Source: Methylobacterium organophilum (lineage in GTDB: Bacteria; Pseudomonadota; Alphaproteobacteria; Rhizobiales; Beijerinckiaceae). Taken from it: 64,000 nucleotides of DNA. The notes below the pieces were generated by a model. It ran no database searches. It had not been told where the DNA came from and saw nothing but the letters and a program-made list of their open reading frames with translations. This document shows, piece by piece, positions 5,175-50,729 of the stretch. Each line of letters opens with the position of its first letter. Positions within the stretch are counted from its first letter, which is position 1. The stretch covers positions 91,299 through 155,298 of the forward strand of contig NZ_BPQV01000015.1 of the NCBI RefSeq assembly GCF_022179465.1, written 5' to 3'. The translations under genes were made by a program, and so were the position numbers.

Positions 5175-5368
5175 GGTCTCTCCCGTAGGCCGAGGGGCGT
5201 GGCCCGCATGGCCCGGCTCGTAGCACAAGGCCGCCCCGTCGCGCGTGCCGGCAAAGGGATCGCGGCGTCGGTCCTGAGGCCGCAAAATGCATTCGTTTTT
5301 TTGAGAGTGAGCGGCATTTCGCACACAGTTTCGTCGACGCGCGCCCGTTCGGCTGGTACAGGCGGGCC

Positions 5369-6118
5369 ATGATGCTCGAACCGCCCGTAGGCGCTGCTGC
5401 CGACGAGGGCTTGGCCCTGCCCTCCGCCCCGGCGGGCGAGTTCTGCGGAGTCCCCTCGCTGCACGATGCCCTGCTCGCCCGGCTGCGCGACTTCGTCGTC
5501 GAGGGAAATCTGGCGCCCGGTGCCCGGGTGCCGGAGCGCCTGCTGTGCGAGCGCTTCGGCGTCTCGCGCACGCCCCTGCGGGAGGCGCTGAAGGTGCTGG
5601 CCGCCGAGGGGCTGATCGAGCTCCTGCCGAACCGCGGCGCCCGGGTGCGCCAGCTCGGGCCGGAGGAGCTGGTCGCGCTCTTCGACATGATGGGCGGGCT
5701 CGAGGCGCTGGCGGGCCGCCTCGCCTGCGAAAAAATCGCCGAGCCGGCTTTCGCCGATATCGAGCGCCTGCATCACGAGATGTACGGCTTCTACCTGCGC
5801 CGGGACCTGCGCGGCTATTTCGCCTGCAACCAGGCGATCCACGACCGCATCGTCGAGGCCGCCGACAACGAGCCCCTGCGGGCGGCCTACGCCAATGTCG
5901 CCGGGCGCCTGCGCCGGGCCCGCTACGCGGCCAATCTCGACGCGAACCGGGACCGCTGGGGCGAGGCCATGCGCGAGCACGAGGCGATCCTCGACGCCCT
6001 GCGCCGGCGGGCGGGCGACGAGCTCGGCGACATCCTGTTCCGGCACCTGCGCAACAAGCGCCGCGCCGCGGCGCCGCGGGAGAACGCGCCGCCCCCGCCG
6101 GATCGCTCCGACGGTTGA
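5369..6118 (+). CDS. GntR-family (FCD/FadR-type) transcriptional regulator
   Basis: The 249-residue protein carries an N-terminal winged helix (about residues 30-95; ERFGVSRTPLREALKVLAAE is the recognition-helix region of the GntR family), then an all-helical FCD ligand domain (about 100-230) with conserved histidines in NQAIHDRIVEAADN and EHEAILDAL. It lies 45 bp upstream of, and in line with, the threonine-aldolase-like gene, and probably controls it and itself. It is divergent from tex. Ligand unknown; FCD regulators commonly sense small carboxylic acids. Confidence 0.9.
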   Translation: MMLEPPVGAAADEGLALPSAPAGEFCGVPSLHDALLARLRDFVVEGNLAPGARVPERLLCERFGVSRTPLREALKVLAAEGLIELLPNRGARVRQLGPEELVALFDMMGGLEALAGRLACEKIAEPAFADIERLHHEMYGFYLRRDLRGYFACNQAIHDRIVEAADNEPLRAAYANVAGRLRRARYAANLDANRDRWGEAMREHEAILDALRRRAGDELGDILFRHLRNKRRAAAPRENAPPPPDRSDG

Positions 6119-6139
6119 GCGGGCTCCGCTTCCTCGATA

Positions 6140-6149
6140 TTGCATGCAA
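6140..6149. promoter_or_regulatory. Palindrome TTGCATGCAA, possible operator
   Basis: A perfect 10-bp palindrome sits in the 45-bp gap between the GntR gene and the PLP-enzyme gene, 15 bp before the latter's start. It could be an operator for the adjacent FCD regulator, but a 10-bp palindrome alone is weak evidence. Confidence 0.3.
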
Positions 6150-6163
6150 ATTGGCCCGCCGCC

Positions 6164-7210
6164 ATGATCGATTTGTACAGCGATACGCAGACCCGGCCCA
6201 CCGCGGGCATGCGCGCGGCGATGGCGCAGGCCGAGGTCGGGGACGAGCAATCGGATTCCGACCCGACCACCCTGGCCCTGTGCGCCCGCGTCGCTGCGCT
6301 GCTCGGCCAGGAGGCGGGCGTCTTCATGCCCTCCGGCACGATGTGCAACCTCGTCGCGATCCTGGTGCAGACGCGGCCCGGCGACGAGATCATCGTCGAC
6401 GACCAGTCCCACATCTACAACACGGAGGCGGCGGGCGCCGCCGCGATCGGCGGCGTCTCGGTCGCGGCCCTGAAGACGCCGGCGGGGCTCTTCACCCCGG
6501 AGGCCTTCGCCGCCGCGATCCGGGCCCCCGGCCGGACGGCGCCCCGCTCCGCCCTGGTGTCGGTCGAGCAGACCACGAGCTTCTCCGGCGGGTCCGTCTG
6601 GCCGCTCGAGACCATGCGGCGCATCCGGGACATCGCCCATGACCGGGGATTGAAGGCCCATATCGACGGCGCCCGCCTGCTCAACGCCGTCGCCGCCACC
6701 GGCATCGCCGCCAGGGACTATGCCGAGGGCTTCGACAGCGCCTGGATCGATCTCAGCAAGGGGCTGGGCTGCCCGGTCGGCGCCGTGCTGTGCGGCAGCC
6801 GCGCCTTCGTGACGGAGGCCTGGCGCTGGAAGTACCGGCTCGGCGGGGCGATGCGGCAATCCGGGATCCTGGCGGCGGCGGGCCTCTACGCCCTCGACCA
6901 TCACCTGGGCCAGCTCGCCCGCGACAACGCCCATGCGGCGCGCCTGCGCGACCGGATCGCGGACGTGCCGGGCCTCGCCCTCGAGGCCGGGGCGGCCCAG
7001 TCGAACATCCTCTGCTTCTCGGTGGAGCCCCTGGGGGTGACGGCGGCGGCCTTCGCCGAGGCTTGTCTCGCCGAGGCGGTCCGCCTGCGGGCCATCGGCG
7101 CGCATCAGATCCGCGCCACCACCAGCCTGCACGTGGACGCGGACGGCATCGACCGGGCCGCGGCGGTCATCCGCGCGCAGGCCGGACGCCTCCATGTCCC
7201 GCGGGGATAG
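6164..7210 (+). CDS. Low-specificity threonine aldolase / beta-eliminating lyase family PLP enzyme
   Basis: The 348-residue protein starts MIDLYSDTQTRPT, the typical N-terminus of fold-type I L-threonine aldolases. The PLP lysine is expected at K199 in DSAWIDLSKGLGCPVGAVL, and HIDGARLLNA is the cofactor-aspartate region. These enzymes split threonine or beta-hydroxy amino acids to glycine and an aldehyde, and some paralogues act on other hydroxy-amino acids. The ATG at 6164 is chosen over the TTG at 6140, which would overlap the palindrome. It is followed by the oxidase gene at 7284, so aldehyde or acid products could pass to it (inference). Confidence 0.88.
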   Translation: MIDLYSDTQTRPTAGMRAAMAQAEVGDEQSDSDPTTLALCARVAALLGQEAGVFMPSGTMCNLVAILVQTRPGDEIIVDDQSHIYNTEAAGAAAIGGVSVAALKTPAGLFTPEAFAAAIRAPGRTAPRSALVSVEQTTSFSGGSVWPLETMRRIRDIAHDRGLKAHIDGARLLNAVAATGIAARDYAEGFDSAWIDLSKGLGCPVGAVLCGSRAFVTEAWRWKYRLGGAMRQSGILAAAGLYALDHHLGQLARDNAHAARLRDRIADVPGLALEAGAAQSNILCFSVEPLGVTAAAFAEACLAEAVRLRAIGAHQIRATTSLHVDADGIDRAAAVIRAQAGRLHVPRG

Positions 7211-7283
7211 CCCGCCCGACACCCCCCCGATCCCGATTGCGCCGGGCCGATGCCCGCCCGGCCGCCGCGCGAGGATGCCGATC

Positions 7284-10241
7284 ATGACCGCCACGGCCGA
7301 GCCGTCCCTCTCGCCCCGCGCGGCGGCACGCCGGAACGCGGGGCTGCCGCGGCGCCTGGCCGAGGCGCTGCGGGGCGAGGCGCGCTTCGACGCCTTCACC
7401 CGGGGCCGCTACGCCACCGATGCCTCGATCTACCAGATCATGCCGGCGGGCGTCGTGCTCCCGAAGAGCGCCGACGACATCGCCGCGACCCTGCGAATCG
7501 CGGCCGAGCACGGCGTGCCGGTGATCCTGCGCGGCGGCGGCACCTCGCAGAACGGCCAGCCGATCGGCTCCGGCCTGGTGGTCGATTGCTCCCGCCACTT
7601 CAACGGGATCACCGCCTACGACCCGGACCAGGGCACCGTAACGGTAGAGCCCGGCCTGGTGCTGGAGCGGCTCAACGCCTGGGTGAAGGCCGATGGCTGG
7701 TTCTTCCCCGTCGAACCCTCCACCGCGAGCCGCTGCACCATCGGCGGCATGGCCGGCAACAATTCCTCCGGCGCCCGTTCCCTGCGCTTCGGCAAGATGA
7801 GCGACAACGTGCTCGCCCTGGAGGCGCTGCTGCCGGACGGGGAGGCCTTCGGTTTCGGCCTCACCGGCAACGCGGCCAGCGGCGTGACGGGCTCGGACCG
7901 GGCCGCCGATCTCGCCCGGCGCCTGCTGAGCCTGGCGGAGGCCCACCGCGACGAGATCGAGCGGGTCTATCCGAAGGTGCAGCGCCGGGTCGGGGGCTAC
8001 AATCTCGACGCCCTGATCGCCCCGCGCCCGAACCTCGCGCATCTGCTGGTCGGCTCGGAGGGCACGCTCGCGGCCACCACCGCCGTGACCCTGAAGCTGT
8101 CGCGGCTGCCGGCCCACCGGGTCATGGGGGTCTGCCACTTCCCCTCCTTCCGCGCCGCCATGGAGACGACCCGGGCGCTGGTCGATCTCGGGCCCGTCGC
8201 CGTCGAACTCGTCGACAACAACGTCCTCGTGCTCGGCGCCGACATCCCGCTCTTCCGCGCGACGCTCTCGGACATCACCCGCGGGCGGCCGAACTGCCTG
8301 CTGCTGGTGGAATTCGCCGGCGACGACCGCGCCGCGCTGCTCCGCGACCTGAAGCGTCTCGACGCCTGCATGGCCGATCACGGCTTCGCCGAGGCGGTGG
8401 TGGCTGTGCCCGAGCCCACCCGGCAGAAATCCGTCTGGGAGGTGCGCGAGGCCTGCCTCAACATCATGATGTCGATGAAGGGCGACGCCAAGCCGGTCTC
8501 CTTCATCGAGGATTGCGCGGTGCCCCTGGAGCACCTCGCCGACTACACCGATGCGGTCACCGAGGTGTTCCACCGCCACGGCACCCGCGGCACCTGGTAC
8601 GCCCACGCCTCGGTCGGCTGCCTGCACGTGCGCCCGATCCTCGACATGAAGCAGGGGGGCGACGTGGCGCGGATGCGGGCCATCGCCGAGGAGGCCTGCG
8701 CGCAGGTGCGCCGCTTCAAGGGCTCCTATTCCGGCGAGCACGGCGACGGCATCTCGCGCTCGGAATTCGTCGCCCCGATGTTCGGGGAGCGCCTGACCCG
8801 CGCCTTCGAGGCGCTGAAGGACGGGTTCGACCCGGAGAACCGGCTCAATCCCGGCAAGATCGTCCGGCCCCTGCGCATGGACGATCGCAGCCTGATGCGC
8901 TTCCGGCCCGGCTACGCCGTGACCGAGCCGCAGACGCCCGCCCTCGACTGGTCGGACTGGGGCGGCTTCGGCGGCGCGGTCGAGATGTGCAACAACAACG
9001 GCACCTGCCGGAAGCGCGCCGGCGGCGCGATGTGCCCGTCCTACCGCGTCACGAAGGAGGAGCAGCACCTCACCCGGGGCCGGGCCAACACCCTGCGCCT
9101 CGCCATGTCCGGGCAGCTCGGGCCGGACGCCTTCACCGGCCCGGAGATGAAGCGCACCCTCGATCTCTGCGTCTCCTGCAAGGCCTGCCGGCGCGAATGC
9201 CCCACCGGGGTCGACATGGCCAAGATGAAGGTCGAGTTCCTGCATCACTACCATGCCCGGCACGGCCTGCCGCTGAAGGAGCGGCTGGTGGCGGCCCTGC
9301 CGCTCTATGCCGGCGCGGCGGCGCGGCTGGCGCCGCTCCTCAACCTGCGCGACCGGGTCCCGGCCCTGGCCCGGCTCTCGGAGCGGGTGGCCGGCCTCTC
9401 CGCCCGGCGCTCCCTGCCGCGCTGGGGGCGGCCCTGGCGGGAGACCGGCGCGTTCGCGCGGCCGCGGGACGTCCTCGGAGACGGCTTCGACGTCGTGCTG
9501 TTCGGCGACACCTTCAACCGCGCCTTCGAGCGCGAGAACCTCGAAGCGGCCGAGCGGGTGCTGCGCGCCACAGGCTACCGCCCGCACCGCCTCCGACCGC
9601 CGGGCGGGCGCCGACCGCTCTGCTGCGGCCGGACCTGGCTCGCCGCGGGGCAGACCGACCGCGCCCGGGCCGAGGCGCGGCGCACCCGCGACGCGCTCCT
9701 GCCCTACGCGCAGGCCGGGGCGCGCATCGTGGGGCTGGAGCCCTCCTGCCTCCTCACCTTCCGGGACGAATTCGCCGCCCTGCTGCCGGGGCCGGAGACG
9801 GAGGCGCTCGGCCGGGCGAGCTTCCTGTTCGAGGAAGTGCTGGCCGCCGACCTGAAGGCCGGCCGGATCGTACTGCCGCTGGCCGACCAGGGCGGCCGGG
9901 TCGCGCATCTGCACGGCCATTGCCACCAGAAGGCCTTCGGGGCGATGGGCGCGGTGGAGAGCGTGCTGCAGGCGGTGCCCGGCCTCGACCTGCGCGTCAT
10001 CGAATCGAGCTGCTGCGGCATGGCCGGCGCCTTCGGCTACGGCGCCGACATGATCGACGTCTCCCTCGCCATGGCCGAACTGTCCCTGTTCCCGGCCCTG
10101 CGGGCCGCCGGCCCGGACGATCTCGTGGTCGCCGACGGCACCAGCTGCCGCCACCAGATCGGCGACGGCCTGGGGCGCGAGGCCCTGCATGTCGCGCGGG
10201 TGCTCGACGCGGCGCTCCTCGTCCGAGCGCCGGGCGCCTGA
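7284..10241 (+). CDS. FAD-linked D-lactate dehydrogenase-like oxidoreductase fused to Fe-S/CCG domain
   Basis: A 985-residue single chain combines a GlcD/Dld-type flavoprotein with a GlcF-type module. The N-terminal FAD-binding PCMH domain (about 50-260) shows GGGTSQNGQPIGSGLVVD and GNNSSGARSLRFGK; the FAD-oxidase C domain follows (about 270-540, including FKGSYSGEHGDGISRSEF). A dicluster 4Fe-4S region comes next (about 570-670; CVSCKACRRECPTGVD near 629), then a C-terminal cysteine-rich CCG region (CCGRTWLAAGQ, HGHCHQKA, ESSCCGMAGAFGYG). The YdiJ/quinone-dependent D-2-hydroxyacid dehydrogenase family has this length and order. The ATG at 7284 has GAGGA upstream. The precise substrate cannot be read from sequence. 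Confidence 0.88.
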   Translation: MTATAEPSLSPRAAARRNAGLPRRLAEALRGEARFDAFTRGRYATDASIYQIMPAGVVLPKSADDIAATLRIAAEHGVPVILRGGGTSQNGQPIGSGLVVDCSRHFNGITAYDPDQGTVTVEPGLVLERLNAWVKADGWFFPVEPSTASRCTIGGMAGNNSSGARSLRFGKMSDNVLALEALLPDGEAFGFGLTGNAASGVTGSDRAADLARRLLSLAEAHRDEIERVYPKVQRRVGGYNLDALIAPRPNLAHLLVGSEGTLAATTAVTLKLSRLPAHRVMGVCHFPSFRAAMETTRALVDLGPVAVELVDNNVLVLGADIPLFRATLSDITRGRPNCLLLVEFAGDDRAALLRDLKRLDACMADHGFAEAVVAVPEPTRQKSVWEVREACLNIMMSMKGDAKPVSFIEDCAVPLEHLADYTDAVTEVFHRHGTRGTWYAHASVGCLHVRPILDMKQGGDVARMRAIAEEACAQVRRFKGSYSGEHGDGISRSEFVAPMFGERLTRAFEALKDGFDPENRLNPGKIVRPLRMDDRSLMRFRPGYAVTEPQTPALDWSDWGGFGGAVEMCNNNGTCRKRAGGAMCPSYRVTKEEQHLTRGRANTLRLAMSGQLGPDAFTGPEMKRTLDLCVSCKACRRECPTGVDMAKMKVEFLHHYHARHGLPLKERLVAALPLYAGAAARLAPLLNLRDRVPALARLSERVAGLSARRSLPRWGRPWRETGAFARPRDVLGDGFDVVLFGDTFNRAFERENLEAAERVLRATGYRPHRLRPPGGRRPLCCGRTWLAAGQTDRARAEARRTRDALLPYAQAGARIVGLEPSCLLTFRDEFAALLPGPETEALGRASFLFEEVLAADLKAGRIVLPLADQGGRVAHLHGHCHQKAFGAMGAVESVLQAVPGLDLRVIESSCCGMAGAFGYGADMIDVSLAMAELSLFPALRAAGPDDLVVADGTSCRHQIGDGLGREALHVARVLDAALLVRAPGA

Positions 10242-38756: not shown

Positions 38757-39161
38757 TCAGGGGCGCCGGGCGACGAGATCGATCTCGATGCGGGCGTCGT
38801 AGGCGAGGCCCGTCACGCCGACGCAGGTGCGGGCGGGGCGGCGGTCGGCGGGGAAATAGCCCTGGTAGGTGGCGTTCATCGCCGCGTAGTCCGCGTCGAA
38901 GCGGGTCAGGTAGATCCGCACCATCACCACGTGCTCCAGGCCCAGGCCGAGCCCGGACAAGACAGTCTTCAGGTTCGCCATGACGTGATGGGTCTGCGCC
39001 TCGATCCCTTCGGGGAGCCGGCCGGGCGCCTCCGGCGTGTCCGGCATCTGGCCGGTGACGAAGACGAAGCCGTCCGTCTCCACGGCGTGGCTGAACGGCG
39101 CGACCGGCTTCGGCCCTCCCGGGACCATGTGGAACAGGAGGGCGGGGGCGGTCTTCGACAT
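38757..39161 (-). CDS. RidA/YjgF family enamine/imine deaminase
   Basis: The 134-residue protein has the whole RidA pattern: FSHAVETDGFVFVTGQMP, VMANLKTVLSGLGLGLEHVV, and the C-terminal RPARTCVGVTGLAYDARIEI with the conserved arginine-plus-glutamate region. RidA proteins hydrolyse reactive enamines or imines from PLP enzymes or amine oxidation. It is divergent from the amino-acid/amide transport and amidase operon and may detoxify its intermediates (inference). Confidence 0.9.
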   Translation of the reverse strand: MSKTAPALLFHMVPGGPKPVAPFSHAVETDGFVFVTGQMPDTPEAPGRLPEGIEAQTHHVMANLKTVLSGLGLGLEHVVMVRIYLTRFDADYAAMNATYQGYFPADRRPARTCVGVTGLAYDARIEIDLVARRP

Positions 39162-39426
39162 CGGGTCATCCTCGGCAGCGCGGCGAACGACGCCGCGCGG
39201 GGCCGGGGCAAGGTGCGAGCCATCCGCCGCCCCGGCCTGATCCGGCTTTCGACCCCGGTGCGGGGGCGGCGGCTGCTCATCCGATGGGCGCGCCCTGCCC
39301 GGAATCTGGCCCGGCCCGATCCAACAAACAGTGCGGCCACAGACAAGTCCGCCGCGGGCGCTTCGGTGACACTCCTGTCTCGGGACTCATGGCCGCGACG
39401 AGGCGGCGAGACGAGGGGAGTGTCCG

Positions 39427-40347
39427 GTGGCTTCCATGTTCGATCAATCCTGCGGCCAGCCCGTGGCAGGGGCCGCGACCTGGCTGAAGCGGGCCGTTCT
39501 CGGCGCGTTCGGTCTCGCCCTGGCGGCGGCCGCGCTCCCGGGGACGGCCGAGGCGGCGGCGCCGGAGGCCTGCGCGGCGCTCCAGGCCAAGTATCCCACC
39601 CTGAAGGGGAAGACGCTGGTCAACGCCATCAACCCGCACACGCCGGGCTACGAGACCATCGATCCCAAGGATCCGAGCAAGTACATCGGCTTCGACGTCG
39701 ATCTCGGCGAGGCGATCGGCGAATGCCTCGGCTTCAGCCTGACCTACAAGCCGGTCACCTTCGCGGCGCTGCTCACCACCCTGCAGGCGGGGCAGGCCGA
39801 CATCGTCATCTCGGACATCTACGCCACCAAGGAGCGCGCCAAGGCGGCGGACTTCATCACCTATCTCAAGGTGTTCGACGGCGTGCTGGTCGCCAAGGGC
39901 AACCCGAAGAAGATCGACGGCATCAACCTCTCGCTCTGCGGCGCGGTGGCCGCCGAGAACACGGGCTATGTCGAGGTGCCGCTGATCCAGGCCCTGGAGG
40001 CCGCGTGCAAGAAGGCCGGCAAGCCGGCGCCCGAGATCCAGCTCTACGACAACAACGCCAACTGCATCCAGGCGATCCTGGCCGGGCGCGCCGACACCTA
40101 CATCAACGACGCCAACACCGTCGACGGCGCCGTGAAGGCCTATCCGGCCAAGCTCGACAAGGCGACGGCGGTGACGCTGCCCTATTCGGTGGGCATCGCC
40201 GTGCCGCGCGACAAGGTCGCCTTCCGCGACGCGGTCTTCGCGGCCCTGACCGAGATCCAGAAATCCGGCCTGCAGGCCGCGCTGATGAAGAAGTGGAACC
40301 TGCCCGCCGAGCAGCTCGAGGCGCCGACGCTCGTCCTCGCCGACTGA
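39427..40347 (+). CDS. Polar amino acid-type ABC transporter substrate-binding protein
   Basis: A 306-residue type-II binding protein (SBP_bac_3): signal peptide ending near residue 40 (TAEAAA), then DPSKYIGFDVDLGEAIGECL and QAGQADIVISDIYATKERAK. The start is GTG at 39427 after a GAGGGGAG ribosome site; ATG at 39436 is the alternative. Four cysteines in the mature part are more than usual. It delivers a small polar ligand to the fused permease-ATPase downstream; with two amidases following, an amino acid or amide ligand is likely. Confidence 0.9.
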   Translation: MASMFDQSCGQPVAGAATWLKRAVLGAFGLALAAAALPGTAEAAAPEACAALQAKYPTLKGKTLVNAINPHTPGYETIDPKDPSKYIGFDVDLGEAIGECLGFSLTYKPVTFAALLTTLQAGQADIVISDIYATKERAKAADFITYLKVFDGVLVAKGNPKKIDGINLSLCGAVAAENTGYVEVPLIQALEAACKKAGKPAPEIQLYDNNANCIQAILAGRADTYINDANTVDGAVKAYPAKLDKATAVTLPYSVGIAVPRDKVAFRDAVFAALTEIQKSGLQAALMKKWNLPAEQLEAPTLVLAD

Positions 40348-40414: not shown

Positions 40415-42031
40415 ATGGATCCGTTCCTGCACTACCTCAGCATGCCCTACCTCCTGGAGGGCATCGGCTACACCCTTCTCATCACCGGGCTCGGCCTGCT
40501 GGGCGGGCTGGCGATGGGGCTCCTCCTCGCCGCGATGCAGCTCAGCCGCTTCAAGGCGCTGGCCGTCCTCGCCCGCGGCTACGCGATCGTCTTCCGCGGG
40601 ACGCCGCTGATCCTGCAGATGGTGTTCTGCTACAACGCCCTGCCGCTGATCGGCATCAAGCTCTCCGCCATCGCCGCGGCCGGCCTCGCCCTCGCCCTCA
40701 ACGAGGCGCCGTTCATCGCCGAGATCCTCCGCTCGAACGTGCTCGGGGTCGATCGCGGGCAGGTCAGCGCCGGCCAGGCCCTCGGCATGACGCCGGCGGC
40801 CATCCTGCGCCGGATCATCGCCCCGCAGGCGATCCGCGCCATGGTGCCGGCCCTCGGCAACGAGACGGTCAGCGCCCTCAAGAACTCCTCGCTCGCCTCG
40901 GTCGTCGCGGTGCAGGAGCTGACGCTGCGCTCGACCCAGCTCGCCTCCGCGACCTTCGACTTCTTCTCGATCTTCTGCGCCTCGGGCCTGATGTATCTGG
41001 GGCTCACCGGGGCGGTCGCGCTCATCCAGGTCGGCGTCGAGCGGCTGCTCGACCTCGACCGGCCGCCGGCCCGGGAGCAATTCGCCCGCCTCCTGCGCGC
41101 CCTCCTGCCCGGGCGGGCCGCCCCGCCGAGCGCGGCGGTGCCCGCGACGCCCGCCCCGGCGGCGGTTCCGCTGGCTCCGGCCGAGCCGCTGCCCGCCCTC
41201 CGGCGGCTCCGCCCCGGCGCGGACGGCCTCGACCGGGCGGCCCGGAGCGAGCGCCTGGCCGGCCACGCCACGGCCGTCGCGATCAGCGGCCTGCGCAAGC
41301 GCTACGGCGGCCACACCGTCCTCGACGGGGTCGACCTGAGCGTGCGCGCCGGCGAGGTCGTCGCCCTGCTCGGCCCGAGCGGATCGGGCAAGAGCACGCT
41401 CCTGCGCTGCATCAACCGCCTCGAGACCTGGGAGGAGGGCACGATCCGCGTCGGCGGCTGCTCCCTCGACGTGGACGAGCGCGGCCGCAGGTTGACGCCC
41501 CGGGCCATCGCCGAGATGCGGGCGAGCGTCGGCGTCGGCATGGTGTTCCAGCAGTTCAACCTGTTCGGCCATCTGACCGCCCGGGAGAACATCGCCGGCC
41601 CCCTGCGCTGGGTGCAGCGGCGCTCGCCTCGTGAGGCGGCGCGGCGGGCGCAGGAGCTGCTCGAGCGCGTCGGCCTCGCCCAGCGCGCCGACGCCCTCCC
41701 CCGCCACCTCTCCGGCGGCCAGCAGCAGCGCGTCGCCATCGCCCGCGCCGTCGCCCCGGGGCCGAGCGTGCTGCTCCTGGACGAGCCGACCTCCGCCCTC
41801 GACCCCGAGCTCGTCAGCGAGGTGCTCGAGGTGATCCGGCGCCTGGCGGTGGAGGAGGGGCTCGCCATGATCATCTCCACCCACCAGCTGCGCTTCGCCG
41901 GCGAGGTGGCCGACCGGATCGTGTTCCTCTCCGGCGGCCGGATCGTCGAGGAGGGCCCGGCCGACCGGGTGCTGGCGGCCCCCGCCCATCCCCTCACCGC
42001 CCGCTTCCTCCGCACCATGGACGCCGCCTGA
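40415..42031 (+). CDS. Fused permease-ATPase of a polar amino acid-type ABC transporter
   Basis: One 538-residue chain. Residues about 1-215 are a HisM-type permease (transmembrane helices, EAA loop EILRSNVLGVDRGQVSAGQA). An Ala/Pro-rich linker follows (about 230-285), then a complete GlnQ-type ATPase (about 288-535): Walker A LLGPSGSGKST, Q-loop MVFQQFNLFG, signature LSGGQQQRV, Walker B LLLDEPTSALD, H-loop STHQL. The permease would act as a homodimer with its own ATPases. Such fusions are known in rhizobia. Confidence 0.92.
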   Translation: MDPFLHYLSMPYLLEGIGYTLLITGLGLLGGLAMGLLLAAMQLSRFKALAVLARGYAIVFRGTPLILQMVFCYNALPLIGIKLSAIAAAGLALALNEAPFIAEILRSNVLGVDRGQVSAGQALGMTPAAILRRIIAPQAIRAMVPALGNETVSALKNSSLASVVAVQELTLRSTQLASATFDFFSIFCASGLMYLGLTGAVALIQVGVERLLDLDRPPAREQFARLLRALLPGRAAPPSAAVPATPAPAAVPLAPAEPLPALRRLRPGADGLDRAARSERLAGHATAVAISGLRKRYGGHTVLDGVDLSVRAGEVVALLGPSGSGKSTLLRCINRLETWEEGTIRVGGCSLDVDERGRRLTPRAIAEMRASVGVGMVFQQFNLFGHLTARENIAGPLRWVQRRSPREAARRAQELLERVGLAQRADALPRHLSGGQQQRVAIARAVAPGPSVLLLDEPTSALDPELVSEVLEVIRRLAVEEGLAMIISTHQLRFAGEVADRIVFLSGGRIVEEGPADRVLAAPAHPLTARFLRTMDAA

Positions 42032-42113: not shown

Positions 42114-43373
42114 ATGACCGCGCACCGCCCCCCGCATCACCTGCCCGCCACGCCCGAGACCGTGCACTGGGGCTATTTCAGCCACACCCTGAAGCCCGTG
42201 CTCACCCTGAAATCCGGCGAGCGCGCCGTGATCGAGACGATCACGCACCACGCCAACGACGATCACGCGCGCATGATCGCCGGCGACCCGGCCGCGGAGG
42301 CGATCTTCCGCTGGACGAAGGAGACCAAGACCCTGCGCCGCCGCGGCGCCGGCGCGACGGAGCCCCCCTTTGGCGCCGGCTCCGGCGAGGGCCTGGGCGT
42401 GCATCTCCTGACGGGGCCCATCGCCATCGAGGGCGCGGAGCCCGGCGACATCATCGAGGTGCGGGTGATCGACATGTGGCCGCGCCCGAGCGCCAATCCC
42501 GCCTATGCCGGCCGCTTCTTCGGGTCCAACCCCTCCGCCAATTGGGGCTTCCAGTACAACGACCTGATCGAGGAGCCGAAGCCGCGCGAGGTGGTGACGA
42601 TCTACGAGCTCGACATGGCCGAGGCCTCGGTCAAGGCGCTCTATTCCTACCGCTGGACACCCCAGACCGACCCGGACGGGATCGTCCACCCGACCATCGA
42701 CTATCCCGGCGTGCCGGTCGACCACGCCACCGTCACCAAGCGGGAGAACGTCCTGCAGGGCATCCGGGTGCCGGCGCGGCTGCATTTCGGCACGATGGGT
42801 CTCGCCCCGGCCGAGGTGGATTTCGTCAGCACGATCCCGCCGAACTATACGGGCGGCAACATGGACGACTGGCGCATCGCCAAGGGCGCCCGGGTCTATT
42901 ACCCGGTCGCGGTGGCGGGCGGGCTGTTCTCCTGCGGCGACGCCCATGCCGCGCAGGGAGACAGCGAGCTCTCCGGCACCGCCATCGAGATCTCGCTCAC
43001 CGGCGAGTTCGAGTTCGTCCTGCACAAGAAGGGCGCGCTGGAGGGCACGATCCTCGAAGGGCTGAACCACCCGCTCCTCGAAACCGAGGCGCTCTGGTCG
43101 GTCTACGGCTTCAGCGTGCCCAACTACCTGACCGAGCTGGCGCCCGATCCGCAGGCGGAGATCCTCAAGCGCTCCAGCCTCGACGCGGCGATGCGCGACG
43201 CCTTCCGGAAGCTGCGCCGCTTCCTGATGACGGCTCACGGCCTGAGCGAGGACGAGGCGATCTCGCTCATGTCGGTCGCCGCGGACTTTTCCGTGACGCA
43301 GGTGGTCGACGCGAATTGGGGCGTGACCGGCTCCATCCCCAAGGCGGTCTTCGCCGGCCGCGCGGCGCGCTGA
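42114..43373 (+). CDS. Acetamidase/formamidase (FmdA/AmdA family)
   Basis: The 419-residue protein matches the FmdA_AmdA family along its length: ETVHWGYFSHTLKPVL, LTGPIAIEGAEPGDIIEVRV, NPAYAGRFFGSN, and the conserved core GDAHAAQGDSELSGTAIE. The family hydrolyses formamide or acetamide to ammonia and the acid in the cytoplasm. It is downstream of the transporter genes and 80 bp upstream of a regulator fused to a second copy of the same domain. Confidence 0.92.
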   Translation: MTAHRPPHHLPATPETVHWGYFSHTLKPVLTLKSGERAVIETITHHANDDHARMIAGDPAAEAIFRWTKETKTLRRRGAGATEPPFGAGSGEGLGVHLLTGPIAIEGAEPGDIIEVRVIDMWPRPSANPAYAGRFFGSNPSANWGFQYNDLIEEPKPREVVTIYELDMAEASVKALYSYRWTPQTDPDGIVHPTIDYPGVPVDHATVTKRENVLQGIRVPARLHFGTMGLAPAEVDFVSTIPPNYTGGNMDDWRIAKGARVYYPVAVAGGLFSCGDAHAAQGDSELSGTAIEISLTGEFEFVLHKKGALEGTILEGLNHPLLETEALWSVYGFSVPNYLTELAPDPQAEILKRSSLDAAMRDAFRKLRRFLMTAHGLSEDEAISLMSVAADFSVTQVVDANWGVTGSIPKAVFAGRAAR

Positions 43374-43453
43374 GGGGCCGTCCGGCCCGCGGGCCGGGCC
43401 TGGCCGGGGCACGATCCTTGCGGCCGCGCCCCGGCCATGCCGGGATCGTCACC

Positions 43454-45799
43454 ATGAGCGCGCAGCCCTTCGCCAGCGAGTCCTATAGCGGGGCCTCGCG
43501 GGACCGGGCCTGGCAGGAGGTTCTCGGCGGCTTCGCCCTGCGCTCCGTGGCGGCGCGCCCGCCGATCTCGGCCCATGCCTCCGCCCTGTTCCGCGCCTCC
43601 TCCCTCGGCCTGCGCCTCGGCACCCTCTCGGCCGAGCCGCAGGTCCTGCAGCCGGCCCATGGCGCGAGCGGCCCGCCCCTCCTGATCCTGCCGCAGGAGG
43701 GCGGTGGCCTGCTCCAGGCCGCCGAGGGCGACCGGATCCTCCGGTCGGGGCAGATGCTGCTCGGCCCCCGGGGCGGCGACTGGCAGCTCAGCTTCCAGCG
43801 TGGGCTGCACGCGATCGTGCTCGCGGCGCCGGCGGAGATGTTCCGGGGCCGCACGCTCGCCCTGCAGAACCTGTCGCGGCCCCATATCCTCGACCGGGAG
43901 GGCGTGTCCGGGATCCTGGCGAAGGCGGCGGAGGCCGCGGCCGGCACCCTCGACCGCCTCTCCGAGATGGCGTGGGAGACCGTGGCCCAGAGCGCCGCGG
44001 AACTGCTTCTGGCCCTCGCGACGGAGCGCGCCTCGGAGGCGGCCGACGCCTCGTCGAGCCGGGTCGCCCTGTTGCAGCGTCTCTACGCCACCATCGAGCG
44101 GCGGCTCGGTGCGGCGAGCCTCTCGGTGGCCGAGATCGCCCAGAGCGAGGGCATCTCCGAGCGCTACGTGCAGAAGCTGTTCGAGGGCAGCGGGGACAGT
44201 TTCAGCCAGTACCTGCGCGAGCGGCGCCTGCAGCGCGCCTGGCACGATCTGGTCGATCCCGCCTGTGGCGCCGTGTCGATCTCCGAGATCGCCTATCGCT
44301 ACGGCTTCTCCGATTCCGCCCATTTCAGCCGCCTGTTCCGGGAGCGCTTCGGGCTGCCGCCCCGGGAGCTGCGGCGGCGCGAGGCGGAGCAGGAGCGGGC
44401 GGCGGGCGCGGCGCCGAACGTTCAGCGCGGCTGGCCGCAACAGGCCCTCGCCCGTCTGCGCGCCCGCCCGGCCCGCGGAGAGGACGAGGCGCCGGGCGCC
44501 GCCGCCCGGCCCATGCGCCGGGAGGGGGCGGCCCGCACGCCGGGGCACCATCACCTGGCCGTCGATGCCGGCACCGTGCACTGGGGCTATTTCAGCCGGT
44601 CGCTCAAGCCGGTCCTGGCGATCGAATCCGGCGATCTCGTCACCGTCGAGACCCTGACCCAGCACGCCTCCGACGACCCGGAACGGATGATCCGCGGGGA
44701 TGCGGGCGCGGAGAACGTGTTCCGCTGGACGGCGACCGAGAAGGCCGTCAACCGCCGCGGCGCCGGCCCCCTCGACGCCTCGGTGCTCGGGCGGGGCGCC
44801 GGCGAGGGCTTCGGCGTCCATATCTGCACCGGGCCGATCGCGGTGCGCGGCGCCGAGCCCGGCGACGTGCTCGAGGTCCGGATCGTCGACATCGCCCCGC
44901 GGCGCTCGCAGAACCCGGCCTATGCCGGCCGCGTCTTCGGCAGCAGCGTCGCCGCCTGGTGGGGCTACCATTACGGCGAGTTTCTCAGCGAGCCCCGGCC
45001 CCGCGAGACGGTGACGATCTACGAGATCTTCCCGGACGGGGACGCGCCCCATGCCCGGGCGGTCCATGCCTTCCGCTGGGAGCCGCAGACCGATCCGAAC
45101 GGCGTGCGCCACGCGCTCTACGACTATCCCGGCGTGCCGGTGGATCCGGCCACGGTGACGCGGCGCAGGCCGGTGCTCTCGGGCATCCGGATCCCGCTGC
45201 GGCCGCATTTCGGCGTGATCGCGGTGGCGCCGCGGGAGGCGGATCTCGTCGATTCCGTGCCGCCCGCCTATTTCGGCGGAAACCTCGACAATTGGCGCCT
45301 CGGAAAGGGGGCGGCCGTCTACCTGCCGGTCTCGGTCGCCGGCGCGCTCCTCTCCGTGGGCGACCCCCATGCGGCCCAGGGGGACGGGGAATTGTCGGGC
45401 ACGGCGATCGAGTGCTCGATGACGGGGACCTTCCGGGTGGTCCTGCACAAGAGGGCCGACACCGGCGGCACGCCCCTCGGCGACCTGACCTACCCGCTGA
45501 TCGAGACCCCCGAGCACTGGGTGCTGACCGGCTTCAGCCACCCGAACTACCTCGCCGAGTTCGGCGCCCACGGCCAGAGCGACGTCTACAGCAAGTCGTC
45601 CCTCGACCTCGCCATGCGCGACGCCTTCCGCAAGGTGCGCCGCTTCCTGATGGCGAACATGAACCTCGACGAGGACGAGGCCATCGCCCTGATGTCGGCG
45701 GCCGTCGATTTCGGGATCACGCAGGTCGTCGACGGGAACTGGGGCGTGCACGCGATGATCGACAAGGCCATGTTCCGGGGGCCGCAGGGCGCGCCCTGA
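43454..45799 (+). CDS. AraC-type regulator fused to an acetamidase/formamidase
   Basis: One uninterrupted 781-codon frame. Residues about 1-200 resemble an AraC-binding-type sensor domain. Residues 222-308 are a complete two-helix-turn-helix AraC DNA-binding domain (SLSVAEIAQSEGISERYVQK; SISEIAYRYGFSDSAHFSRL). A linker of about 55 residues rich in Ala/Arg follows. From about 365 to the end is a full FmdA/AmdA domain: TVHWGYFSRSLKPVL, GDPHAAQGDGELSGTAIECS, closely similar to the preceding gene. An internal ATG at 44513 could in principle make a free amidase, but it lacks a well-placed ribosome site. The likely role is a regulator that binds or turns over the amide it responds to (inference). 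Confidence 0.88.
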   Translation: MSAQPFASESYSGASRDRAWQEVLGGFALRSVAARPPISAHASALFRASSLGLRLGTLSAEPQVLQPAHGASGPPLLILPQEGGGLLQAAEGDRILRSGQMLLGPRGGDWQLSFQRGLHAIVLAAPAEMFRGRTLALQNLSRPHILDREGVSGILAKAAEAAAGTLDRLSEMAWETVAQSAAELLLALATERASEAADASSSRVALLQRLYATIERRLGAASLSVAEIAQSEGISERYVQKLFEGSGDSFSQYLRERRLQRAWHDLVDPACGAVSISEIAYRYGFSDSAHFSRLFRERFGLPPRELRRREAEQERAAGAAPNVQRGWPQQALARLRARPARGEDEAPGAAARPMRREGAARTPGHHHLAVDAGTVHWGYFSRSLKPVLAIESGDLVTVETLTQHASDDPERMIRGDAGAENVFRWTATEKAVNRRGAGPLDASVLGRGAGEGFGVHICTGPIAVRGAEPGDVLEVRIVDIAPRRSQNPAYAGRVFGSSVAAWWGYHYGEFLSEPRPRETVTIYEIFPDGDAPHARAVHAFRWEPQTDPNGVRHALYDYPGVPVDPATVTRRRPVLSGIRIPLRPHFGVIAVAPREADLVDSVPPAYFGGNLDNWRLGKGAAVYLPVSVAGALLSVGDPHAAQGDGELSGTAIECSMTGTFRVVLHKRADTGGTPLGDLTYPLIETPEHWVLTGFSHPNYLAEFGAHGQSDVYSKSSLDLAMRDAFRKVRRFLMANMNLDEDEAIALMSAAVDFGITQVVDGNWGVHAMIDKAMFRGPQGAP

Positions 45800-45859: not shown

Positions 45860-46795
45860 CTATCGGTCTTCGCGCAGGTGAGGTGTTCCGAGGGCTCTTG
45901 GTTCGGTGTTGTTGGATTGGGCTTTGAGGCAGGTCCAGATCATGACGCCGAGGGTGGCGAGATAGGGGATCATGGCGATGAAGTACTGGGGGACCTGGAT
46001 ACCGACCGCGGCGATCCGGGGGATCAGGGCTTCGATGGCGCCGAACAGCAGGGCGCCGGCCAGGGCGCGCCAGGGCTGCCAGCGGGCGAAGATGACGAGG
46101 GCGACGGCGATCCAGCCGCGTCCGCCGGTCATGCCCTCGACCCAGATCCGGGCGATGCCCACGGAGAGGTAGCCCCCGGCCAGGCCGACCAGGGCGGCGC
46201 CGGCGGCGACCGCGCCGTAGCGCGTGGCCGACACGCCGATGCCGGCGGCGTCCGCCGCGTCGGGCCCGTCGCCGACGGCGCGCAGGCGCAGCCCGGTCAG
46301 GGTGCGGGCCAGGAACCAGGCGACCAGGCCGAAGGCGGGCACGGTCAGGAACACCACCGCGTCCTGGCGGAACAGCACCGGGCCGATCCCGGGCAGGTCG
46401 GAGAGCGGGACGAGGGAGAGGCTGCGCAGACCCTCCACCGGCCGGTTGACCCAGCCCTGGCTGGTGCCGATCAGCCCGGTCAGGCCCTGAGCCAGGAACA
46501 CGAAGCTCAGCCCGGCGATGACCTGGTTGACCCGCAGGCTCACCACCAGCACGGCGTAGAGCAGGGACAGGAGCGCGGCGGCCAGGGCCGAGACCAGCAG
46601 GGCCGGCATCGGCGCCGCCCCCAGCCCGAGGATGGCGCCGATGCCGGCCAGCGCCCCCACCAGCATGAAGCCCTCCGCCCCGAGCGCGAGCACGCCGGCC
46701 TTCTCCATCAGCAGCATGCCCAGGGCGGCCAGGGCGAAGGGCACGGCGAAGCCCGGCACCGCGGCGAGCCAGTCGAGCAGGAAGTCGAGGAACAT
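45860..46795 (-). CDS. BMP-type ABC transporter permease (second)
   Basis: The 311-residue polytopic protein (about nine helices) of the BPD_transp_2 family contains EKAGVLALGAEGFMLVGALAG, the typical opening of NupQ/YufQ-like permeases, and RAVGDGPDAADAAGIGV as the coupling segment. Last gene of the importer operon, convergent with the AraC-amidase fusion 60 bp away. In this family the transporters import nucleosides, purines or related heterocycles. Confidence 0.92.
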   Translation of the reverse strand: MFLDFLLDWLAAVPGFAVPFALAALGMLLMEKAGVLALGAEGFMLVGALAGIGAILGLGAAPMPALLVSALAAALLSLLYAVLVVSLRVNQVIAGLSFVFLAQGLTGLIGTSQGWVNRPVEGLRSLSLVPLSDLPGIGPVLFRQDAVVFLTVPAFGLVAWFLARTLTGLRLRAVGDGPDAADAAGIGVSATRYGAVAAGAALVGLAGGYLSVGIARIWVEGMTGGRGWIAVALVIFARWQPWRALAGALLFGAIEALIPRIAAVGIQVPQYFIAMIPYLATLGVMIWTCLKAQSNNTEPRALGTPHLREDR

Positions 46796-46809
46796 CGGGA
46801 CGGCTCTTT

Positions 46810-46837
46810 CTCAGTCGATCCAGCTCAGTCGATCCAG
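46810..46837. repeat. 14-bp perfect tandem duplication at the 3' end of a permease gene
   Basis: CTCAGTCGATCCAG occurs twice head-to-tail (46810-46823 and 46824-46837). The second copy carries the permease stop codon, so the duplication lies just beyond or across the gene end without changing the protein much. Confidence 0.8.
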
Positions 46838-47962
46838 CGCAGCCGGTGGCGGATGAAGAAGTCCGAGGCCGCCACGCACAGGACGATCACCGCCTGGACG
46901 AGCTGCACCGCGGAGCTGGGGATCTGGTAGAAGACCTGCAGGCTCTGGCCGGCCACGAACAGGGTGCCGACGGCGAAGGCCACCACCAGCACGGCCAGGG
47001 GATTGTTGCGGGCCAGGAAGGCGATCAGGATTCCGGAGAAGCCGTAGCCGACGGCGAAGGACTGGGTGAGCCGGTGCTCGACGCCGGCGCAGATCGCGAA
47101 GCCCGCCACTCCGGCCAGCGCTCCCGAGAGCAGGGTGGCGGCCAGCAGCACCCGGGTCATGGGCAGGCCCTGGGCTTGGCCCAGGCGCGGATTGGCCTCG
47201 GCCACCCGCATCAGGAAGCCGAAGCGGCTCACGTCGATCAGCCACCAGCCGGCCAGCAGCAGGACCAGGGCCAGCGGCAGGGCGGCGGTGAGGTTCTGCC
47301 AGCCGAGATCGGCCAGGCGCTCGGCCGGCCCGAACAGGGCCGAGTTGGGGAAGTTGCTCTCGGGGTCGCGCCAGGGGCCGTAGAGCAGGTGCAGCAGGCC
47401 GTTGAGGGCGACGTAGTTCAGAAGCAGCGTCGAGATGATCTCGTTGAGCCCGAGGCGCAGGCGCAGCAGCGTCGGCCCGAGCATCCACAGGGCGCCCCCG
47501 AGGGCGGCGGCCAGCCCCATCAGCCCCAGGCGCAGGGGGGCCGGGCCGAGATCGGCCAGGGCCACCGCGGTGGCGGCGATGGCGCCGCTGATCATCTGGC
47601 CCTCGATGCCGATGTTCCAGAAGCGCACCCGGAAGGCCAGGGCCGCGGCCAGCCCGACGATGGCCAGCGGCGCGGCCTGGGTGAGCACCGCCGCGAAGCT
47701 CTCCGGGCTGGTGACGACCGAGACCACGAATTCCTGGGCGAGCTCGGACAGGCCGACGCCGGAGGCCATCAGGATCGCGGCGGCGCAGGCCAGCCCCGCC
47801 AGGAGCCCGCCGGACAGCGCCGCCGCCTGCAGCCAGCCGGGGGCGTGCTGGCGGATCTCGACCGCCAGGCGGCGGGTACGGCGCCTCGGAGCCTCGGGGT
47901 TCGGCCTCGAAGCCGGCTTCGAGGCCGGCGGGGGCGTCAGGAGCATGGCGGAAGGCGCGGTG

Positions 47963-47970
<8 letters not shown>
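46825..47970 (-). CDS. BMP-type ABC transporter permease (first)
   Basis: The 381-residue BPD_transp_2 family permease (NupP/YufP-like) has a 50-residue basic, Pro-rich cytoplasmic N-terminus, then about nine transmembrane helices. Marks are FRVRFWNIGIEGQMISGAIA and LGLNEIISTLLLNYVAL, plus the coupling stretch RVAEANPRLGQAQGL. It overlaps the ATPase gene stop by 8 bp. Confidence 0.92.
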
Positions 47971-49483
<1,513 letters not shown>

Positions 49484-49616
49484 CGAAAACACCAAAATCC
49501 GCCGAAGAGAAAAGGGAATGATGCCTCGGGCATCGGCGTCCCTCGCTTCGCAGGGAGCATGCCGAGGGGCGCCGCCGGATGGCCGGCGGCGCCCGCATGA
49601 TGGCGACGTCCGGCCG

Positions 49617-50729
49617 CTATTTCTGGGTGATCACCCCGGGCACGAACCAGTCCATCTTCCAGAGATCGGCATCGCTGAGCGCGCCGCCCGCCGGCACGTG
49701 CTCCTTGCCTTCCCGGTCCTTGAGCGGGCCGGCATAGATCTTCTTGCCATCGATGATGGCCTGGCGCTCCGCCATGATCTTGGCGACCGCCTCCTTGGGC
49801 ACGGCCGGGCCGCAGCAGGCGATGTCCGGACCGCCCTCCTTGATCGAGACGAAGGCGCCGTAGGGCGCGGGCTCCCAGGTGCCGGCTTTGATCTTCTGGA
49901 TGGTCGGGATCAGGTAGCGATCCCAGTACCAGACCGAGGAGCACAGCGTCGCCTTGGGCGCGAATTCGCGCATGTCGCGGTGATGGCCGGTACCGAAGAT
50001 GCCCTTCTCCTGGGCCACGATCTGCGGGGTCGGCGTGTCGACGTGCTGGCCGATCGCGTCGATGCCCTGGCCGGCGAGGGCCTCGGCCGCGGCGCGCTCC
50101 TTCACCGGATCGTTCCAGGAGCCGGTGAAGATCGCCGTCGTGGTCGCCTTCGGGTTCATCTGCTTGGCGCCGAGCTCGAACGCGTTCACCGTCCAGTTGA
50201 CGACGCCGAACGGGTTGGCGGCGACGAAGCCGAGCTTGCCCTCCTTCGAGGCTGCGCCTGCGGCCATGCCGCAGAGGTAATGCGTCTCGTAGGTGCGGCC
50301 GTAGAAGGATTCGAGGTTGGGGCCGTTGGCCGTGCCCGAGCCGTTCACGAAGGCGATCTTCGGGTACTTCTCGGCCAGCTCCTTGAACGTGTCGGAATAG
50401 CCGAACGCGGTGCCGATGATGACATTGTAGCCGCGCTTGATGAACAGCTCGACCGCCGGCCGGATCGCGGTCGCCGATTCCTTGATGTTCTCCACCACCG
50501 GGATCTTGATCCCGAGCGCCTGCTCGGTGCGCATGCGGCTCTCATCGAAAGCCTGGGACCAGCCACCGTCGTTCTTGGGCCCGAACAGCACCATCGCGAC
50601 CTTGGGCTCGCCCTCGAGCTTGAACGGCGCCGCCTGCGCAGGCCCCGTCAGGGCCGGCGCCAGTCCCGCTGCGCAGGACAGCCCGAGCGCGGCGTAAGCC
50701 GCGGTTCTGCTGACAAATCTTCCGATCAT
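49617..50729 (-). CDS. BMP-family (Med/PnrA-like) ABC substrate-binding protein
   Basis: The 370-residue protein has a Sec signal peptide (about 1-33, ending GPAQAA; no lipobox cysteine). The mature part opens KVAMVLFGPKNDGGWSQAFD, with the FGYSDTFKELAEKYPKIAFV and NPFGVVNWTVNAFELGAKQM stretches of the Bmp family. Family members bind purine nucleosides or other N-heterocyclic ligands through stacking aromatics. First transporter gene of the minus-strand operon; its neighbours point to a nitrogenous ring compound or amide. Confidence 0.9.
   Translation of the reverse strand: MIGRFVSRTAAYAALGLSCAAGLAPALTGPAQAAPFKLEGEPKVAMVLFGPKNDGGWSQAFDESRMRTEQALGIKIPVVENIKESATAIRPAVELFIKRGYNVIIGTAFGYSDTFKELAEKYPKIAFVNGSGTANGPNLESFYGRTYETHYLCGMAAGAASKEGKLGFVAANPFGVVNWTVNAFELGAKQMNPKATTTAIFTGSWNDPVKERAAAEALAGQGIDAIGQHVDTPTPQIVAQEKGIFGTGHHRDMREFAPKATLCSSVWYWDRYLIPTIQKIKAGTWEPAPYGAFVSIKEGGPDIACCGPAVPKEAVAKIMAERQAIIDGKKIYAGPLKDREGKEHVPAGGALSDADLWKMDWFVPGVITQK

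Follow-up and report, generated by a model that had tools for sequence, protein, structure and literature searches.

An AraC-Type Regulator Fused to an Acetamidase/Formamidase Domain and Its Association With a Conserved Operator-Like Site in Alpha- and Betaproteobacteria

The Fusion Gene and Its Operon

The window analyzed here is a stretch of 64,000 nucleotides from Methylobacterium organophilum, in which a forward-strand gene (43454..45799) encodes 781 residues in a single uninterrupted frame with zero internal stops. The initial annotation had described the product as an AraC-type regulator joined in frame to a complete FmdA/AmdA enzyme, and both the 781-codon open frame and the Pfam domains agree with that description. 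From its N-terminus, the protein comprises a jelly-roll sensor domain (residues 1-200; 43454..44053), an AraC-type double HTH DNA-binding domain (residues 204-309; 44063..44380), an interdomain linker that is predicted to be disordered (residues 310-364; 44381..44545) and an FmdA/AmdA amidase domain (residues 365-775; 44546..45778), all on the forward strand. The Pfam matches lie well above the family cut-offs: HTH_18 (PF12833) at residues 228-309 scored 74.9 bits against a curated cut-off of 33.6, HTH_AraC (PF00165) at residues 268-308 scored 38.8 against 26.6, and FmdA_AmdA (PF03069), with its best stretch at residues 601-760, scored 102.6 against 27.

Structure prediction, which the initial annotation had proposed as a check, gave a mean pLDDT of 84 for the sensor/HTH half (AF2 model of residues 1-309, built on 8 sequences), a disordered linker and a poor amidase half. 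PDB matches to the modelled sensor domain were the sensor domains of BgaR, ExsA and AraC, and thus an AraC-like jelly-roll is present; the N-terminal half also matched entire AraC-type regulators, as well as their domains separately. Mean pLDDT over the whole full-length model was 66, and the amidase domain was poorly modelled, probably because the alignment was shallow; we therefore took PDB entry 3b9t as the evidence for its fold. This structure, deposited as ‘Twin-arginine translocation pathway signal protein’, matches the amidase half of the fusion over almost the whole length of that half (query 11-423 of 428, E 2.3e-180). No twin-arginine (Tat) signal was found before the fusion’s amidase domain, which is preceded by the AraC half and the linker. 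The open frame of the fusion also extends well beyond its start into the amidase gene before it (42476-45799), probably an effect of high G+C content, and several long antisense ORFs in the window appear to be of the same kind.

Upstream on the same strand lie three genes that appear to form an operon with the fusion. The nearest (42114..43373), already called a free amidase of the same family in the initial annotation, does match FmdA_AmdA in Pfam, lacks a Tat signal and shares 56% identity with the fusion’s amidase domain. Before it lies a predicted ABC transporter of the polar amino-acid type, with permease fused to ATPase (40415..42031), for which each of the 25 NCBIfam matches listed fell below its family cut-off; its relatives are annotated ‘amino acid ABC transporter permease/ATP-binding protein’. 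The first gene (39427..40347) encodes a probable ABC substrate-binding protein of the amino-acid type, with matches to amino-acid binding proteins that stayed below all family cut-offs. A RidA-family gene diverges from the operon (38757..39161, reverse strand; TIGR00004, 94.7 bits, under the cut-off of 106.25). Indole-3-acetamide as the substrate of the system would be pure speculation. Downstream of the fusion, further ABC transporter genes occupy 45860-50729 on the reverse strand, and two of their proteins show weak matches, below cut-offs, to putative vitamin B6 transporter models.

Conservation and Distribution of the Fusion

The initial annotation had seen neither a stop nor a frameshift between the two halves, and this holds beyond the window: 24 of 26 fusion loci were open across the match or stopped at its very end. 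A genome-contig scan gave 17 loci, and in 8 of these (L038-L045) the match, at 52-65% identity, began at residue 1 and extended into the amidase domain. Plasmid records added further cases; 1338 had any match and 15 covered at least 80% of the query, from Rhizobium, Neorhizobium, Sinorhizobium, Caballeronia, Paraburkholderia, Variovorax and an unclassified Hyphomicrobiales strain. Altogether, uninterrupted fusion frames were found at 56 loci of Hyphomicrobiales, Burkholderiales and Sphingomonadales (29, 16 and the 11 loci L162-L172), some of which are redundant (L039 and L086, for example, are identical in the amidase tree) and two of which, among the first 29, are cut by contig ends (L040 and L044). 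Interrupted frames were also seen: the two exceptions among the 26 loci were a stop within the amidase part in a MAG (L038) and a broken N-terminal frame in Rhizobium johnstonii TP60, where the gene is annotated as two proteins (L060), and a third interruption was read in L155, where ambiguous bases are present. We regard the AraC-amidase fusion as confirmed as a real one-chain protein.

Conservation in relatives rules out a sequencing or frame accident. It also rules out a chance open frame in G+C-rich DNA, which the linker of the window would not do alone: that linker is 85% G+C and its shuffled versions remained open in 78% of trials, so its open frame is by itself weak evidence for a fusion. 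The full AF2 model gives a pLDDT of 27-29 at about residues 318-361, indicating disorder, and dN/dS in the linker was 0.21-0.46 across close pairs, one saturated pair being left out. A short motif is nevertheless kept in these otherwise fast-evolving linkers. It reads RGWP in the window (44426..44437, forward strand), and RGxP is present in 55 of the 56 uninterrupted fusions as RGWP, RGRP, RGKP, RGLP or RGAP. Most Bradyrhizobium-like linkers of the type 2 context described below carry TRGRPRLAR. We take these motifs to resemble an AT-hook core, and RGxP might contribute extra DNA contacts.

The distribution of the fusion is patchy. Full-length matches occurred in 1 of 112 genomes of the window’s genus, in 2 of 289 of a class sample and in 8 of 398 of a phylum sample, the window’s own genome being included in each. 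By far the most came from the genus of genome G267, by inference Bradyrhizobium since two of its genomes share match coordinates with the named loci L040 and L044, in which 106 of 242 genomes carried the fusion among the matches listed (two cut C-terminally), a count that may miss fusions with very divergent N-terminal parts. The family of genome G303 had it in 6 of 250 genomes; three were full-length in the match table, and the other three (L099-L101) were recognized by reading their N-terminal parts. Among the matches listed, both the fusion and its operon partner were absent from the other genomes of the window’s genus, while Tat-exported relatives were common there, with a Tat signal in 29 of 29 by pattern (L009-L037). 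This suggests that the window organism acquired the fusion horizontally.

The neighborhood of the fusion takes a few recurrent forms. In the type 1 context, the genes for the substrate-binding protein, the ABC permease/ATPase, the free amidase and the fusion share one strand, and RidA often comes after them; RidA adjoins the fusion in relatives and is divergent in the window. The fusion diverges from the uptake operon in Caballeronia and converges with it in Paraburkholderia FT54. In the type 2 context, the fusion diverges from a gene for a Tat-exported amidase. This arrangement was found for all 12 fusions of 48-50% identity from the genus of G267, for three Sinorhizobium/R. etli loci and for 5 of 6 fusions in the family of G303; Tat signals were confirmed by pattern in 12 type 2 partners, 8 of them from the set of 12. 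A free-standing family member lay within the retrieved DNA of 29 of 31 fusion loci, the exceptions being L091 and L154. The latter, from genome G201 (3775-9415), holds a lone fusion that diverges from TRAP transporter genes, with DctP, DctQ and DctM all above their Pfam cut-offs; no second match below E 1e-100 was found in that genome, and no family member in the 16 kb around the fusion. Nitrile hydratase genes lie near the Caballeronia amide operon (L057, 1263-3007).

Ancestry and Selection of the Amidase Domain

A tree was built from 72 amidase domains. Those of the 27 fusions made up one side of a branch with an SH-aLRT support of 98. Another group (support 100) held 23 of 25 operon partners, and the Tat-exported amidases made up a third, weaker group (support 79). 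The two remaining partners, those of L058 and L062, fell in a distant amidase clade. With a single fusion branch, these results are in line with a single origin rather than a local copy of the neighboring gene. A recent origin from a duplicate of the neighboring amidase was also rejected: the three groups are separate, and the fusion’s domain is nearer in identity to Tat-exported relatives (about 61-64%) than to the amidase next to it.

Residues conserved in the 44 non-fusion rows are kept in the 27 fusions, among them H456, GGNxD (608-612), GDxHxxQGDxE (636-646) and E653; G643 is replaced by Ala in 3 of the 27. The signature patterns were kept in 56 of 56 fusions. Across nine close pairs, dN/dS was 0.04-0.10 for the amidase domain, 0.02-0.36 for the HTH and 0.05-0.24 for the sensor. 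Over 171 pairs from 19 species, mean identity was 73.4 for the fused domain and 79.5 for the free partner, a somewhat greater variability of the fused domain. Three changes, Q403, F607 and L624, are specific to the fusions. Residue 403 is Gln in 26 of the 27 fusions and His in the partner and Tat amidases; a pattern reading of 45 fusions gave Gln in 42, His in one and no reading in two, and L162-L172 had Gln in 11 of 11. The change may alter activity if the corresponding His takes part in catalysis or binds a metal. Judged from these sequence patterns, the fused domain is probably an active enzyme, or at least has an intact pocket. The kept signature and the low dN/dS agree with the proposal in the initial annotation of a regulator carrying the enzyme for its likely inducer; a GabR-like pocket without turnover is a less likely alternative.

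An Operator-Like Site Associated With the Fusion

An EM motif search over the 320 bases upstream of the binding-protein gene at 13 diverse loci returned one 26-bp motif, CAAtnanTtGTGCGccnnCnGACAAG, in all 13, with a log-likelihood ratio of 190 against 72-81 in 12 dinucleotide-shuffled sets. The copy in the window, CAACAAACAGTGCGGCCACAGACAAG, lies upstream of the uptake/amidase operon at 39322..39347 on the forward strand and scores 29.7; the second-best position in the 64 kb scores 9.9, and ten shuffled windows reached 6.9-16.4. In a pattern search of the window genome, the sole match with 0 mismatches was at this operon. Only the exact match is informative, because allowing 2 mismatches gave 21 matches against 19 for a reversed control pattern; with 3 mismatches, the window held 4 matches against 4.68 expected. 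A -10-like element, GACACT (39368..39373, forward strand), begins 21 nt past the operator and matches the consensus at 5 of 6 positions. TAMGCT-like elements start 20-22 bases past the site in 14 of 15 loci, with 5 or 6 of 6 positions matching in 12 of the 15, although this is to be read as description, because the consensus was picked after inspection.

The site also occurs at fusion loci on which the motif was not trained. Each of the 12 divergent regions between fusion and Tat amidase from the genus of G267 contained it, with scores of 14.8-27.1, and most had a pair of sites, one on each strand, usually separated by 122-124 bp. The five divergent loci from the family of G303 all had it as well (24.5-29.1). 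For comparison, the 99th percentile among 300 shuffled regions was 12.7 and their highest score 14.8, the same as that of the weakest divergent region. Two more untrained sites scored 28.6 (G1161) and 28.0 (Variovorax L161), the latter upstream of a binding-protein gene and several kb from the fusion. Where the partner amidase belongs to the distant clade (L058, 7712-8848; L062, 5134-6290), the site is still present upstream of it (scores 18.4 and 20.0, respectively), and these amidases look as if they had been swapped into the regulon. At L154, a site of 22.2 lies between the TRAP operon and the lone fusion. The three Sinorhizobium/R. etli loci had weak sites (L064, 15.1; L090, 17.5; L092, 10.8), and the best score at L091, 14.0, is not convincing.

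Tat amidases from genomes without the fusion gave a different result. In the genus of G267, 31 genomes had a match but no full-length fusion; 20 of these were searched, all 20 with a Tat signal by pattern, and none had the site before the Tat amidase (best score 12.4), a contrast to be read knowing that fusion carriers and non-carriers may sit on different branches of the genus. Nor was the site found upstream of Tat amidases at 29 loci of the window’s genus (best score 9.0). Related genomes inflate such counts, and the 20 and 29 site-free loci do not amount to 49 independent tests. Absence at both sets weakens the reading of the site as a mere conserved amidase promoter. Taken together, the site tracks the fusion regardless of which amidase or transporter is its neighbor. 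Its presence in 12 of 12 regions with the fusion and 0 of 20 without makes the fusion very probably the regulator of the operon, acting through the site at 39322-39347.

A Candidate Mechanism and Its Alternatives

These patterns suggest a one-component regulator that would also be an enzyme. The AraC half would bind the 26-bp operator beside the uptake/amidase operon’s promoter and so control the genes for the substrate-binding protein, the ABC permease/ATPase, the free amidase and the fusion itself, with transcription responding to an amide or its product. The position of the site, just upstream of the -10-like element, would fit a class II activator. Binding and hydrolysis of this amide are the most likely roles of the C-terminal domain; if so, the regulator would use up its own inducer, and the switch would reset once the amide is gone. 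From comparisons among sequences we infer each of these steps, that is, binding and activation at the site, the ligand, catalysis, and a coupling of catalysis to DNA binding. We lean slightly towards this model as a whole, and consider the chances evenly balanced that the amidase domain is active and feeds back on induction. A broader reading is more tentative and, in our judgment, falls somewhat short of even: that such proteins make up a widespread class of self-resetting transcription factors, in which an AraC protein would hydrolyse its own inducer, output would follow the flux of amide and shut itself off, and one operator would recruit an ABC importer, a TRAP transporter or a Tat amidase, depending on the lineage.

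The chief rival to a regulator that consumes its inducer is a domain that only senses. The amidase domain would then be a repurposed ligand pocket without useful turnover, hydrolysis would be left to the free paralogue, and the bound amide or acid would change the AraC half, as in GabR/MocR. The free-standing family member at 29 of 31 fusion loci speaks for this, since bulk catalysis is already provided there, as do the changes Q403, F607 and L624 and the greater variability of the fused domain relative to its partner (73.4 against 79.5 mean identity). However, the signature is kept in 56 of 56 fusions under strong purifying selection, and the fusion of G201 has neither a second match below E 1e-100 nor a family member in the surrounding 16 kb. 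We give the sensing-only reading about half the weight of the consuming regulator.

Two further readings concern how the halves are joined. They could act independently and have been joined for co-expression or a fixed ratio, which the long, predicted disordered and fast-evolving linker would permit; yet RGxP is conserved within that linker, and one clade of fusions has been kept across Alpha- and Betaproteobacteria though a separate amidase usually adjoins, and we think independent halves improbable. Far less credible still is that two proteins are made, by an internal start or by cleavage in the linker. The window does have an in-frame ATG at 44513, near the usual start position of free amidases, but its ribosome-binding site is poor (2 of 6 matches), no conserved internal start codon was found in the linkers, and 3 of 29 linkers had no start codon at all. 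A separate amidase from an internal start was dropped as a candidate, the start not being at a conserved position.

Relation to Known Systems

AraC/XylS regulators such as FeaR, CuxR, RhrA, ToxT and Rns typically end after the HTH, whereas the fusion adds an enzyme domain of ~410 residues behind it. Its amidase domain resembles the Tat-exported amidases of the 3b9t type, at about 61-64% identity and with a near end-to-end match to 3b9t, but differs from them in the regulator placed in front, the lack of a Tat signal and Gln403 in place of His. The initial annotation had likened the protein to PutA and BirA, trigger enzymes that combine an enzyme and transcription control in one chain; the domains of both are unrelated to those of the fusion, and the likeness is by analogy only.

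MocR/GabR regulators already provide a case of an HTH linked to a full enzyme-fold domain, which recognizes a metabolite (PMC5734734, PMC6917764, PMC5320631). Those proteins combine a GntR-type HTH with an aminotransferase fold, neither of which was found in the fusion (Pfam, E 0.01); the fusion has a different HTH and a different enzyme family, plus a separate jelly-roll sensor. The fmdCABDEF cluster is closer in gene content. As described in PMC10781810, it encodes a formamidase, binding-protein dependent uptake and a putative regulator that stands beside the formamidase and is not fused to it, and formamide and urea induce the system.

If the proposed model is correct, the fusion would be a compact, testable transcription factor that carries a complete metabolic enzyme, with the operator, the operon and the free-standing paralogue serving as internal control. 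It would set the copy of an enzyme that senses apart from the copy that does the work, and make the question of catalysis as a signal directly testable. The fusion is present in more than 100 of the genomes sampled. Many amidase loci of rhizobia and other plant-associated bacteria, for which the open-access search found no description, also gain a probable regulator and operator. The initial annotation knew of no described AraC-amidase fusion, and a search of the open-access literature (PubMed Central, with most subscription journals outside its scope) found no description of the fusion or of the operator. That view of novelty stands for the literature searched but not for the proteins themselves, which are common and already annotated at NCBI; public records name them by one domain, as either ‘acetamidase/formamidase family protein’ or ‘AraC family transcriptional regulator’.
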